Translations under genes and position numbers: made by a program
Notes under the pieces: model-generated
The model's database searches: none
What the model saw: only the letters and a program-made list of their open reading frames with translations
Told to the model about the DNA's origin: nothing
Shown here: piece by piece, positions 3,462 through 24,662 of the stretch
Position numbering within the stretch: position 1 is the stretch's first letter
Layout of the letters: each line of letters starts with the position of its first letter
Origin: a virus
Length of the DNA: 45,101 nucleotides
Reading direction: 5' to 3' (one strand)
IMG/VR virus record: IMGVR_UViG_3300036652_000860
Span: 1 to 45,101 of that record

Positions 3462-3474
3462 TACGACAGTAGTA
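3462..3474. repeat. Palindrome site TACGACAGTAGTA
   Basis: One mismatch. Intergenic, upstream of 2880-3440. Confidence 0.75.
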
Positions 3475-19319: not shown

Positions 19320-19350
19320 GGGGTTGGTTCCCGTTGGTTGGGGTTGACGT

Positions 19351-19363
19351 TACTACGGTAGGA
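19351..19363. repeat. Palindrome site TACTACGGTAGGA
   Basis: One mismatch. Leader of 18783-19319. Confidence 0.75.
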
Positions 19364-19374
19364 ATAGGAAGCAA

Positions 19375-19410
19375 TAAGTCGGGCCGAATTTCCCCGCATG
19401 AGGGGACTTA
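19375..19410. repeat. Inverted repeat TAAGTC / GACTTA around a CCCC-GGGG stem
   Basis: TAAGTC (19375-19380) pairs with GACTTA (19405-19410); CCCC (19392-19395) and GGGG (19402-19405) lie inside. The same TAAGTC arms begin and end the longer inverted repeat at 10091-10136. Confidence 0.5.
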
Positions 19411-19441
19411 GCGGCACCGTGGGCGGCGCGGGGTGCCACGC

Positions 19442-19485
19442 CACTACGTAGTAACTGCTAAGGTAGTGGCCGTTACTACGTAGTA
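19442..19485. repeat. Triple palindrome cluster (12-, 13-, 12-mer)
   Basis: CACTACGTAGTA (19442-19453), TGCTAAGGTAGTG (19456-19468, three mismatches), TACTACGTAGTA (19474-19485, perfect). Tandem operator-like array in the control region. Confidence 0.7.
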
Positions 19486-19494
19486 GGGTGGGGG

Positions 19495-19516
19495 GTTATT
19501 TCGGAAGTGAAATAAC
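19495..19516. promoter_or_regulatory. Operator-like 8-bp inverted repeat GTTATTTC/GAAATAAC
   Basis: Perfect 8-bp arms with a 6-base centre. The internal ATTTCGGAAG (19498-19507) recurs inverted at 21873-21882 in the second control region, which suggests a regulator site. Confidence 0.45.
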
Positions 19517-19634
19517 GGTTGTGCGCATTCGGTGATCGGCACCCACCTATCCGTGCCATCGCAGGACCAGGGTGAGCGCGGCGTGGCGCGCGGGGATCGC
19601 GAGCGGTCGGCGATCGGCTGCCAGCCTCGGGGTG

Positions 19635-19992
19635 TATCGACTGCCAGAAAAGCCTAGGAACGCAGTCATATCCGGGGTAATCGGGCAAAACGTCAAGTGT
19701 CTGATATGCCACGATACCCGGTCGCCGGGGGCAATCGAGTGTATCGAGTGTATCTATTACCTAGGAAAATAAAGGAGAGAGCGGAACCTCGGGAGGTCGG
19801 GTGCCTCAAACTACCGCCAAACTTGTAGCAGCAGTTCAGCCGGGGATCGCGCGTATCCTATATTTTTAAAACTTGGTAGTAGATACATTCGATACATTCG
19901 ATAAGTCGGCCTGAACAAAATCAATCACTTAGCTCGGGTAGTCAACTGCCAGGGAACCTTGGTAATCGACGCCAAAAACCTGGCAGTCGATA
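19635..19992. repeat. Two-tier nested inverted repeat, origin or centromere candidate
   Basis: Outer pair TATCGACTGCCAG at 19635-19647 and inverted at 19980-19992, with an extra partial copy at 19941-19952. Inner pair: two tandem ATCGAGTGT units (19734-19754) and two inverted ATCGAATGT units (19882-19902). After the inner repeats both arms continue with a TAYTACC-like stretch. The midpoints nearly coincide, at about 19,814 and 19,818. Confidence 0.6.
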
Positions 19993-20120
19993 GCTTGCCA
20001 CTCGCGAGGTCACCCACGCGGGGCAAATCGGGCGGCGCGGCGCATTAAATCCACAGCATTCGGTGGCGCGTGCCTCATGCGCGCCGGTGTTGCGAGTGCT
20101 GTAGGTTGAATGGGTCGCTC

Positions 20121-20156
20121 CTGCTGTAGCAGGATTAGTTATTCCTACTACAGCAG
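20121..20156 (-). terminator. Hairpin downstream of gene 20187-21155
   Basis: CTGCTGTAG (20121-20129) pairs with CTACAGCAG (20148-20156), an 18-base loop between. Lies about 30 bases past the stop. No U-run, so termination is uncertain; the arms are also parts of palindrome-family sites. Confidence 0.35.
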
Positions 20157-20158
20157 TA
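20146..20158. repeat. Palindrome site TACTACAGCAGTA
   Basis: One mismatch. Downstream of 20187-21155; a weaker copy TCCTGCTGTAGCA is at 20119-20131. Confidence 0.65.
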
Positions 20159-20186
20159 ACAACGAGGTCAGTCTTAGGCGTCAGGC

Positions 20187-21155
20187 TTAGGCTGCCGTCA
20201 GGGCGTCCACGTCATCCGGCGTGAACGTTGAGGGTGACAAGGCGGCACCGATGGACTTCTTGCCACCACGGGCGCGCTTGGCCGCCTTGGGTGCGGGCGG
20301 CGCGACCGTCTCGACCTCGACCTCGGGGACTTCCTCGGTCGCGGGGACTTCTTCGGTCTCGGTCGGCTCGTTCAGCAGGCCCTCGATCGTCTGGTCCGGC
20401 TGATCCGATACTACGGTCGTAGCACCGGGAACCATACCGCGCACTGCGTCGAGGACTTCCTTGGTCACGGTCGCGAGACCATCGGCGGCCGCCACGATGT
20501 CGGCCAGATCGAAGTGGCTGGAGATCGCGCGCAGCTTGCCCACGATGGCCTCCAGTTCCTTGGCAGTCTTGGCGGTGTCCACCTTGCGGTCGGCGATGAC
20601 GCGATGCGCCTCGGCGATCAGATGGTCCATCGTCGGGATGCTCGCGCCGTCTTTGATGAAGCGCGAGGTCGAGAGGATGCAGTGATACTTGCGCAAGAAC
20701 GCCTCACGCAGCGGCTTCGGCGCACCCTTCTCGGGGTTCTCGCCTTCGATCGTCCAGGCGTCGTTGCACATCCCGATGATGCGGCCGATGTCGTCACGCA
20801 CGTTGGGGTGCATGACCACGCCGGCTTCTGAGATGAACGTTTTGATGGACTTGGACAGACCCTGCTGGTCTTCCTTGGCCTTCTTCAGCATGGAAGACGC
20901 CGCGGAAATCTCCAGCTCCGTCCAGCTACCCTCGGCGGAGCGGTCCGCGAGGGCGCGCATGGCGTTCTCACGGGCGTTGGATGCCTCGACCTTGGCCTTG
21001 TCGTTTTCATCCTTGGCGTTGGCCGCGAGACCGTCGGCGTAGGCGATCTCGGTCCGGCAGACCGAGGTAATCGTGCTGGAGATCGAGGACAAGCGCGCCG
21101 CATCGTTGGTCTGCTTGGCCTTGATGGCGAGAACCGTGTTCAGAACGTTTGTCAT
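20187..21155 (-). CDS. Helical protein with acidic then basic C-terminus
   Basis: 322 aa from ATG 21155 with GGAGG upstream. Residues 1-210 are helical and coiled-coil-like (KAKVEASNARENAMRALADRSAEG); a Pro/Glu/Val-rich acidic stretch follows, then AAKRARGGKKSIGAAL. The palindrome 20409-20421 encodes GATTVVSD just before the acidic stretch. It stands alone between the two control regions with its own palindrome-bearing leader. Could be a DNA-associated or host-takeover protein; no family recognised. Confidence 0.7.
   Translation of the reverse strand: MTNVLNTVLAIKAKQTNDAARLSSISSTITSVCRTEIAYADGLAANAKDENDKAKVEASNARENAMRALADRSAEGSWTELEISAASSMLKKAKEDQQGLSKSIKTFISEAGVVMHPNVRDDIGRIIGMCNDAWTIEGENPEKGAPKPLREAFLRKYHCILSTSRFIKDGASIPTMDHLIAEAHRVIADRKVDTAKTAKELEAIVGKLRAISSHFDLADIVAAADGLATVTKEVLDAVRGMVPGATTVVSDQPDQTIEGLLNEPTETEEVPATEEVPEVEVETVAPPAPKAAKRARGGKKSIGAALSPSTFTPDDVDALTAA
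20409..20421. repeat. Palindrome site TACTACGGTCGTA
   Basis: One mismatch. Inside 20187-21155 (GATTVVSD). Confidence 0.7.
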
Positions 21156-22134: not shown

Positions 22135-22575
22135 ATGACAACCAAGCGGATCAGCAGTAGCCACTCCCAGATAGGGGAAGCGGCCCCGATCCCTCGTTTA
22201 GACGCCTTCCTAGCCGACCGGATCACGGACTGGCTGAGCACAACCTACGAGAGCAGGCGAAAGCCAGAAATACAATCTAAAGTCCTTGCGCTGGTGCTCC
22301 AGCTCGCCTTTGATAAGAAGGGCGACCCGCAGCCCTTCCCCCGTCGGGAAGACCTCGCGGAGTATCTGTCCTGCTCCAAATTCACGATCGACGCGGCGAT
22401 CTACCGCTCGATGGAGCGCGACCTGATCCGCCCGGTGCTGCGCCCGGTCGAGGGCCATCTGGCGCGCGGCGGCGGCGTCAACCAGCTCCGCTATTTCGAG
22501 ATCATCAGCGACGCGCTGAAAGCTGAATATGACAGCTACAGAAGGACTGCGGGACGGAAACGACCTGCTGCCTAA
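22135..22575 (+). CDS. Winged-helix DNA-binding protein, probable regulator
   Basis: 146 aa, AGGA site before ATG 22135 that overlaps the edge of palindrome 22110-22122. The central part PRREDLAEYLSCSKFTIDAAIYRSMERDLI reads as a helix-turn-helix, followed by a wing-like GHLARGGGVNQLRYFEII. First gene of the rightward arm, so a lysis-lysogeny or copy-number regulator, or a replication initiator accessory, is plausible. A candidate binder of the dispersed palindrome. Confidence 0.65.
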   Translation: MTTKRISSSHSQIGEAAPIPRLDAFLADRITDWLSTTYESRRKPEIQSKVLALVLQLAFDKKGDPQPFPRREDLAEYLSCSKFTIDAAIYRSMERDLIRPVLRPVEGHLARGGGVNQLRYFEIISDALKAEYDSYRRTAGRKRPAA

Positions 22576-23178: not shown

Positions 23179-23195
23179 CGGGGAGAGCTGTGCCG

Positions 23196-23726
23196 ATGCC
23201 AAGCCAGAACTTTTTTTCACCAGGCCATGCAACCGCCACCGCGCGCCGCCTGCGCACCGCCGTCGCCGCCCGCGAGATCACCCCCTACGACTTCGTGATC
23301 GCCGACCATTTGCTGTGGCAGTGCCGCAAGCTGGGCCGCGCCGACGCCCGCATCTCGATGTCGGCGCTTGCCTCGCGGTGCGGGCGGGCCAAATCCACCG
23401 TCGAGAAAACCGTCAAACGTCTCGCCGACCTCGGCCTTTTCCGCGTGGTGAAATCGCGTCTCAGGGTCTGGTGGGGGGTGAACCATAGCTCGGTCGCGTC
23501 CCGCCAGGACGTGAACACCTATGTTTTCTGCGCGCCGGACACAGAGACCGCGCGGCGGCCGGTAGAACGAGTCAAAGATAAAACCCTAGAGTCTCAACAT
23601 GCTAGACCCTTGGGAAAAGAGCTTGCAGCGGCACTAGAAAGCTACCAAACTACAGTAGTAAAAATGCAAGGGGCGCGTAACCGTGAAAACACTGGTACTG
23701 CTGTCCCAAAAGGGGGGTGCTGGTAA
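23196..23726 (+). CDS. Helix-turn-helix protein upstream of parA
   Basis: 176 aa from ATG 23196 (GTG 23190 also possible), with GGGGAG upstream. Residues about 50-80, ISMSALASRCGRAKSTVEKTVKRLADLGLFRVV, form a winged helix-turn-helix. Near the C-terminus the palindrome 23648-23660 encodes YQTTVVKM. The last 44 bases overlap the start of parA. Position next to a partition operon and behind a structured leader suggests a plasmid-type replication or copy-control regulator; not proven. Confidence 0.65.
   Translation: MPSQNFFSPGHATATARRLRTAVAAREITPYDFVIADHLLWQCRKLGRADARISMSALASRCGRAKSTVEKTVKRLADLGLFRVVKSRLRVWWGVNHSSVASRQDVNTYVFCAPDTETARRPVERVKDKTLESQHARPLGKELAAALESYQTTVVKMQGARNRENTGTAVPKGGCW
23648..23660. 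repeat. Palindrome site AACTACAGTAGTA
   Basis: One mismatch. Upstream of the parA Shine-Dalgarno, inside 23196-23726 (QTTVVK). Confidence 0.75.
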
Positions 23727-24363
23727 GAGCACGCTGGCGCTGCATATCGCGGTCTGTGCCGAACGACAGGGCCTGCGAACATTGCTCGTGGATGTCGATC
23801 CGCAGGGGTCGATCGCCGGCTGGGCCGAGCGGCGCGGCGAGCGCACCCCCGACGTGTTGCCGACTCATCCGGCCAAACTCGCCGCGGTGTGCGCCGACTC
23901 CGCGCGCGAAGGCTACGATCTGATCGTCATCGACACGGCCCCCGCCGCCGATAGAGGGGCGCTGGTCGCCGCCGGGGTGGCCGATTTTATTTTGATCCCA
24001 TGTCGGCCCGCGCAATTCGATCTCGACGCCGTGGTCACGACGGTGGCGATGATCCGCACTGTGCGAAAACCGTTCGCCATCGCGTTCAATGCCGCCCCGC
24101 CACGGGGCCGCCAGATCGAGGACGCGACCTCGCTGGTGGTAGCGTCGGAATATCCCTATCTGGCGCACAGCATCCGCAGCCGTGTGGCGTTTCAATCCTG
24201 CCTGACCTCGGGCGATACCGCGATGGAGCTGGAACCAAGCTCGATAGCGGCGCGCGAGATGGGTGATTTCTACGGCGAGCTGATGGGCCGCATGGACCGG
24301 CTCGACCGACTCGTTACCGCCGTGCCGAACGGCGACAACACCAAAACCAAGAGGAGTGCCTGA
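23683..24363 (+). CDS. parA: ParA-type partition ATPase
   Basis: 226 aa. Deviant Walker A KGGAGKST (10-17), DVDPQGS (motif A' like), and LIVIDTAP (Walker B). Short ParA without an N-terminal HTH, as in type Ib plasmid partition systems, where the partner is a small RHH centromere-binding protein; such a gene follows (24363-24662, overlapping by one base). It moves plasmid copies over the nucleoid, which implies an extrachromosomal plasmid-like state. GTG start with AAGGGG; the palindrome 23648-23660 lies upstream. Confidence 0.92.
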   Translation: MKTLVLLSQKGGAGKSTLALHIAVCAERQGLRTLLVDVDPQGSIAGWAERRGERTPDVLPTHPAKLAAVCADSAREGYDLIVIDTAPAADRGALVAAGVADFILIPCRPAQFDLDAVVTTVAMIRTVRKPFAIAFNAAPPRGRQIEDATSLVVASEYPYLAHSIRSRVAFQSCLTSGDTAMELEPSSIAAREMGDFYGELMGRMDRLDRLVTAVPNGDNTKTKRSA

Positions 24364-24662
24364 TGGCACTGAAAGCACCGCGAACACTGAACCGCCTGCC
24401 CGAGCCGCCGCCCGTGGAGCGCGTCCCAGGCCGTGCCCCAGCGGCGAGCAAGGGCCGCACGCGGCTGACGCCGATCAACGGCAAGGGCAAGCCTGTGGGC
24501 ACCCGCGAGGGTCGCACGCAGGTGGCGTTCTTCATCAACCGGCAGGCCAAGAAGCAGCTCGATCAGTTCCGCATCGACGAGGATACCTCGTTGCAGGCGC
24601 TGATGATCGAAGCGGTCAACCTGCTGCTGGAGAAGAAGGGCAAACGGCCGAACGCGGAGTAG
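24363..24662 (+). CDS. RHH-type centromere-binding partner of ParA
   Basis: 99 aa. A flexible basic N-terminus (to about 45) is followed by RTQVAFFINRQAKKQLDQFRIDEDTSLQALMIEAVNLLLEKKG, a ribbon-helix-helix. Layout (disordered basic arm plus C-terminal RHH) is that of ParG/omega-like partition proteins. ATG overlaps the parA stop (TGATG). Type Ib partners bind short repeats upstream of parA and also act as repressors; this makes it a candidate reader of the dispersed palindrome. Confidence 0.8.
   Translation: MALKAPRTLNRLPEPPPVERVPGRAPAASKGRTRLTPINGKGKPVGTREGRTQVAFFINRQAKKQLDQFRIDEDTSLQALMIEAVNLLLEKKGKRPNAE

Follow-up and report, generated by a model that had tools for sequence, protein, structure and literature searches.

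What does a stretch of phage DNA do that carries no gene and in which two tiers of inverted repeats face each other around nearly the same midpoint? A sequence-only reading of this locus had offered three functions, a replication origin, a bidirectional operator or a centromere. The window analysed here is the whole of an IMG/VR virus record of 45,101 bases, a fragment of the genome of an uncultured soil phage. We assign it to a podovirus-like phage because of the matches of its proteins, which include a connector, a major capsid protein, an internal virion protein, a family-A DNA polymerase, an exonuclease, an ATPase and a DUF2201 protein. The genome in the window is incomplete, since contig IMGVR_UViG_3300037069_002417, which is identical to window bases 19529-45099, continues past the right end. 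This contig starts within the repeat-bearing gap, at 19529, where a few unmatched bases precede the identity, reflecting either an assembly break or real variation. By portal protein, the nearest named phages form a group of four nearly identical Rhizobium phages that includes RHph_TM27A (52%), and judging from such matches the window phage is related to RHph_TM27A at the protein level. For the region from 17.5 to 22.5 kb, no similarity at the DNA level was found in the phage and plasmid collections searched.

The repeats lie in a non-coding gap between two minus-strand genes (Table 1). The nested layout described by the sequence-only reading is borne out, with both arms of both tiers in place and midpoints at 19813.5 for the outer pair and 19818 for the inner pairs. 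The inner tandem 9-mers read ATCGAGTGT twice on the plus strand at 19734-19751 and ATCGAATGT twice on the minus strand at 19885-19902. Both tiers are thus real, and their description can be refined: outer and inner repeats are copies of one 9-bp iteron, WATCGANTG, three facing three around ~19,815, and the inner arms extend to 28 bp of complementarity that includes three G-T positions. Of the seven copies of WATCGANTG in the whole 45 kb, six fall within 358 bp, three per direction. The absence of a gene, also claimed, holds as well, as no gene is supported in the gap and no open reading frame inside it exceeds 78 aa.

Table 1. Features in and beside the proposed origin region, in window positions
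Feature	Position	Strand	Remark
Non-coding gap, 867 nt, between two minus-strand genes	19320..20186	.	Proposed origin region; longest internal ORF 78 aa
Outer iteron, left, TATCGACTGCCAG	19635..19647	+	Exact match
Outer iteron, right, TATCGACTGCCAG on minus strand	19980..19992	-	Exact match
Two tandem 9-bp iterons, left, WATCGAGTG x2	19733..19754	+	
Two tandem 9-bp iterons, right, TATCGAATG x2	19882..19903	-	
Left arm, extended 28-bp inner inverted repeat	19734..19761	+	From sequence; pairs with 19875-19902 in computed fold
Right arm, extended 28-bp inner inverted repeat	19875..19902	-	From sequence and fold
Segment of 80 bp with the lowest stability in the whole window, candidate DNA unwinding element	19854..19933	.	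Nearest-neighbour stability scan
IHF-like site AATCAATCACTTAG (WATCAANNNNTTR)	19919..19932	+	Motif confined to gaps of the phage family
322-aa all-helical protein, no family assigned	20187..21155	-	Homologues precede the gap in 22 relatives

The significance of the repeats differs with the feature that is counted. In a window of 45 kb, finding one exact inverted pair of 13 nt within a distance of 400 nt is at chance level (shuffle mean 1.17). The 22-mer tandem motif together with its inverted partner is absent from all of 100 shuffles, and the mirrored-iteron score of the window is 6.5 against a shuffle maximum of 4.0. We rejected counts of repeated 9-mers as evidence on their own, because random pieces of the loci reach equal scores: the window gap scores 6, and pieces drawn elsewhere in the loci average 5.3 and reach up to 12. 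Searches of IMG/VR with the exact repeat sequences returned, beyond the near-identical phage copy, scattered single unpaired matches, mostly in ORFs.

The AT-rich patch said to be enclosed by the repeats proved to be the 80-bp segment of lowest stability in the window, overlapping both the IHF-like site and the right inner iterons. Thirteen of 18 loci, the window among them, have their least stable 80 bp within the gap. The IHF consensus is WATCAANNNNTTR, and its match in the window gap is a candidate site. Across the loci, the 16.2 kb of gaps contain 10 copies of ATCAATNNNTTAG, which fits this consensus, and the remaining 340 kb contain none (0.02 in shuffles); WATCAANNNNTTR itself occurs 12 times in gaps versus 4 times in the rest of the loci. 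The DnaA box TTWTNCACA is absent from the entire window; this box is facultative, as self-loading initiators need not use DnaA. The GC-skew analysis suggested as a check for an origin was of no help. Cumulative skew has its maximum at 21-22 kb, where gene direction also flips; its sign there is the reverse of what origins usually show, and we discarded skew as confounded evidence.

Relatives were gathered with a profile of the conserved ATPase, which found 54 loci; a genome scan with the ATPase profile gave no matches. A homologue of the minus-strand 322-aa gene adjoining the gap is encoded, in synteny, at 22 of the 54 loci, and nearly all 22 have after it some 360-1100 nt of AT-rich DNA in which no convincing gene is seen. 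Gap DNA sequence shows no conservation across these relatives. Period-9 tandem repeats are nevertheless concentrated in the gaps, with 8 in 18 kb compared with 9 in the remaining 338 kb, and mirrored arrays of unrelated iterons score above their own shuffles in L049 (8.5), L069 (8.5), L067 (6.0) and L055 (5.0). On sequence, we consider the mirrored arrays of lineage-specific iterons clear in these four relatives, probable to doubtful in L051 and L058, and doubtful in L053 and L063. Nine gaps (RHph_TM27A, L045, L047, L048, L050, L052, L068, L071 and L073) hold no clear mirrored array that beats shuffles. A mirrored array can therefore be claimed for only part of the phage family, half of the gaps being without detectable iterons, and all array-bearing relatives are metagenomic contigs. 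The layout also varies: L055 has two modules, each an AT-rich core flanked by iterons, and the array of L049 is found outside the gap, upstream of the 322-aa gene, its four iterons per side enclosing ATCAATAGGTTG and an AT-rich stretch. The sequence-only reading had named lack of conservation of the repeats in relatives as a ground for refutation; the repeat sequences are indeed not conserved, but in several relatives the architecture is, with different repeats in the same layout at the same place.

Among named phages, RHph_TM27A has related portal, capsid, PolA and DUF927 proteins and, at the matching place in its early region, an AT-rich non-coding gap with two ATCAATNNNTTAG sites. It differs in having no detectable mirrored iterons and in the gene adjoining its gap, for which no similarity to the 322-aa protein could be detected. 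The capsid, ATPase, PolA and DUF927 proteins of this phage group are also encoded on a Bradyrhizobium contig of 60.6 kb, NZ_PSRT01000042.1 (L131-L133), which seems to be a complete phage by itself. We did not retain it as a named relative, as it has neither a 322-aa homologue nor the IHF-like motif, and its AT-rich spots are without clear iterons.

We conclude that the gap at 19.3-20.2 kb is probably the replication origin of the phage. The window contains replicon-specific repeat copies, an adjacent, easily melted AT-rich segment and an IHF/HU consensus site; of the usual parts of an iteron origin, the DnaA box is missing. Iterons, an A+T-rich element and assistance by IHF/HU are standard for the lambda, pSC101 and R6K origins (PMC5043065). 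Of the functions first offered, the origin gains from the place and layout shared by relatives, the IHF-like site and the melting segment. We infer origin function, an iteron-binding protein and the direction of replication as follows. A phage initiator would bind the six WATCGANTG copies as two opposed assemblies, three iterons per side; an IHF-like host protein would bend the DNA at its site; the weakest 80 bp of the fragment would open; and the replicative helicase would be loaded in both directions. We propose opposed initiators because of the iteron-origin parts and the kinship of the DUF927 protein to the SaPI Rep initiator.

The SCC helicase Cch, which contains the DUF927 domain, is related to the self-loading initiator SaPIbov1 Rep; SaPI Rep uses its C-terminal domain to recognise iteron origins and apparently does so as two hexamers (PMC7581432). 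A DUF927 protein of ~1000 aa is encoded by each of the 17 relatives searched. The window ends before the expected position of this gene, which in the window phage should be found to the left of the fragment. By analogy with SaPI Rep, the DUF927 protein is the likeliest candidate for the initiator. Its identity among phages is about 0.35-0.41 in the ATPase core and 0.22-0.26 in the C-terminus (~110 residues); such variability would be expected if the C-terminus reads diverging iterons, but it is weak evidence for this role. In RHph_TM27A, the N-terminal region of the DUF927 protein looks primase-like by eye. The protein annotated there as 'putative integrase' (L098:14249-17332) matches DUF927 and no integrase model.

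The proposed origin thus resembles SaPI origins with a Rep initiator helicase (SaPIbov1 Rep / SCC Cch, DUF927) in its short replicon-specific iterons and in a DUF927-family helicase, here in the relatives, with a variable C-terminal region. It differs from them in that the phage helicase seems, from its motifs, to be fused to an N-terminal primase-like region, in that many phage relatives have an IHF-like site, and in that the helicase gene is far from the repeats: in RHph_TM27A it lies ~22 kb from the gap, whereas a SaPI-type origin sits directly downstream of the helicase gene. With the lambda origin (O iterons and an AT-rich element), the window shares inverted iterons, an adjacent A+T-rich segment and a place in the phage early region. 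However, the window iterons lie outside any initiator gene, no O-like initiator was identified with confidence, the units are 9 bp instead of the 19 bp of lambda, and the two inner arrays are ~130 bp apart. The iteron plasmid origins pSC101 and R6K gamma ori likewise combine iterons, an AT-rich element and an IHF-like site, but theirs is one direct array and not a mirrored pair, the window has no DnaA box, and the replication proteins differ.

The 322-aa protein beside the gap is the second initiator candidate or possibly an accessory factor. Its start was moved from 21317 to the ATG at 21155, the likely start, which has a Shine-Dalgarno-like TGGAGG directly upstream. The protein has no PHROG or Pfam match; its fold, predicted to be all-helical with good confidence for the first ~240 residues, has no match in PDB or BFVD, and the orphan family has an acidic C-terminal end. 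That this family represents a new kind of origin-binding initiator, one that in a large group of uncultured podoviruses from soil co-evolves with mirrored iterons specific to each lineage, is a tentative and rather doubtful extension. In the literature searched, we found no published replication origin for PolA/DUF927 podovirus-like phages. The matched, diverged candidate origins of the relatives offer ready origin-initiator pairs with which to ask what protein recognises the iterons and how specificity shifts, and they could show whether full-size phages also use the SaPI-type initiator mechanism.

We weighed the origin against other readings of the same repeats. They could be a partition centromere, bound by a phage ParA/ribbon-helix-helix ParB pair that stabilises a plasmid-like prophage. 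The window does encode ParA (23683-24363) and an RHH protein (24363-24662, PF20605), and L067, the sole other ParA-bearing relative among the 17 searched, likewise has a clear mirrored array. However, the repeats of a ParABS centromere lie near parAB and are present only with it. Here, the par genes are 3.7 kb from the repeats with other genes between, ParA is found only in the window and 1 of the 17 relatives, and L049 and L069 (contigs G013 and G023) have mirrored arrays and no ParA match. We therefore rejected a ParA centromere as a general explanation, and for the window phage itself consider it unlikely.

A phage regulator might instead bind the mirrored repeats as a bidirectional operator or regulatory region of the early operon. 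This would suit the position of the gap among early genes and the conserved winged-helix protein (22135-22575) that is encoded nearby in 16 relatives. Yet both genes flanking the gap point the same way, no sigma-70-like promoter was found in it, the winged-helix regulator has a better candidate site in a palindrome repeated genome-wide, and an operator leaves the melting minimum and the IHF-like motif unexplained, all of which makes this reading quite unlikely.

A structured non-coding RNA, with the nested arms as stems, is very unlikely. The computed fold is strong on both strands (z = -7.9 on the plus and -6.2 on the minus strand) and all differences between the inner arms are G-U on the plus strand, but inverted repeats fold well regardless of their role, and Rfam gave no match for the region. 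The iterons are kept in L049, L055, L067 and L069, although their arms are unequally spaced or accompanied by extra single copies, which favours protein sites over stems. Finally, lambda attP and cosB also combine short repeats with IHF sites, but an attachment or packaging site with arm-type or terminase-binding repeats is scarcely probable here, because a tyrosine integrase occurs in only 4 of 17 relatives; in addition, the scanned proteins of the window, itself a fragment, include no integrase match, and the gap belongs to the early region, at a distance of several kb from the packaging and head genes.

Apart from the origin, two other features of the window merit mention. A palindrome close to TACTAC-N-GTAGTA recurs across it in about 55 copies, roughly one per gene and in both gene directions, often just ahead of a Shine-Dalgarno sequence and start codon (for example at 3462, 7022, 12591, 18457, 19474, 21174, 22110, 30606 and 39631). 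Relatives have their own versions, TACTCCGGAGTA in G004 and TTTACTWCCGNAGTAAA in G003. In cluster K mycobacteriophages, inverted repeats associated with gene starts (ESAS; PMC3203893) are similar to the window palindrome. The winged-helix-like protein noted above is a candidate for reading these dispersed copies; its gene is on the plus strand and, in the 16 relatives that keep it, always divergent from the 322-aa gene. The second feature is a plasmid-like module on the plus strand at 23190-24662, which encodes a rep-like winged-helix protein, ParA and the RHH protein. The module is nearest to plasmids of Acetobacteraceae and other alphaproteobacteria, and among the relatives ParA occurs only in L067; its presence suggests a plasmid-like prophage state.
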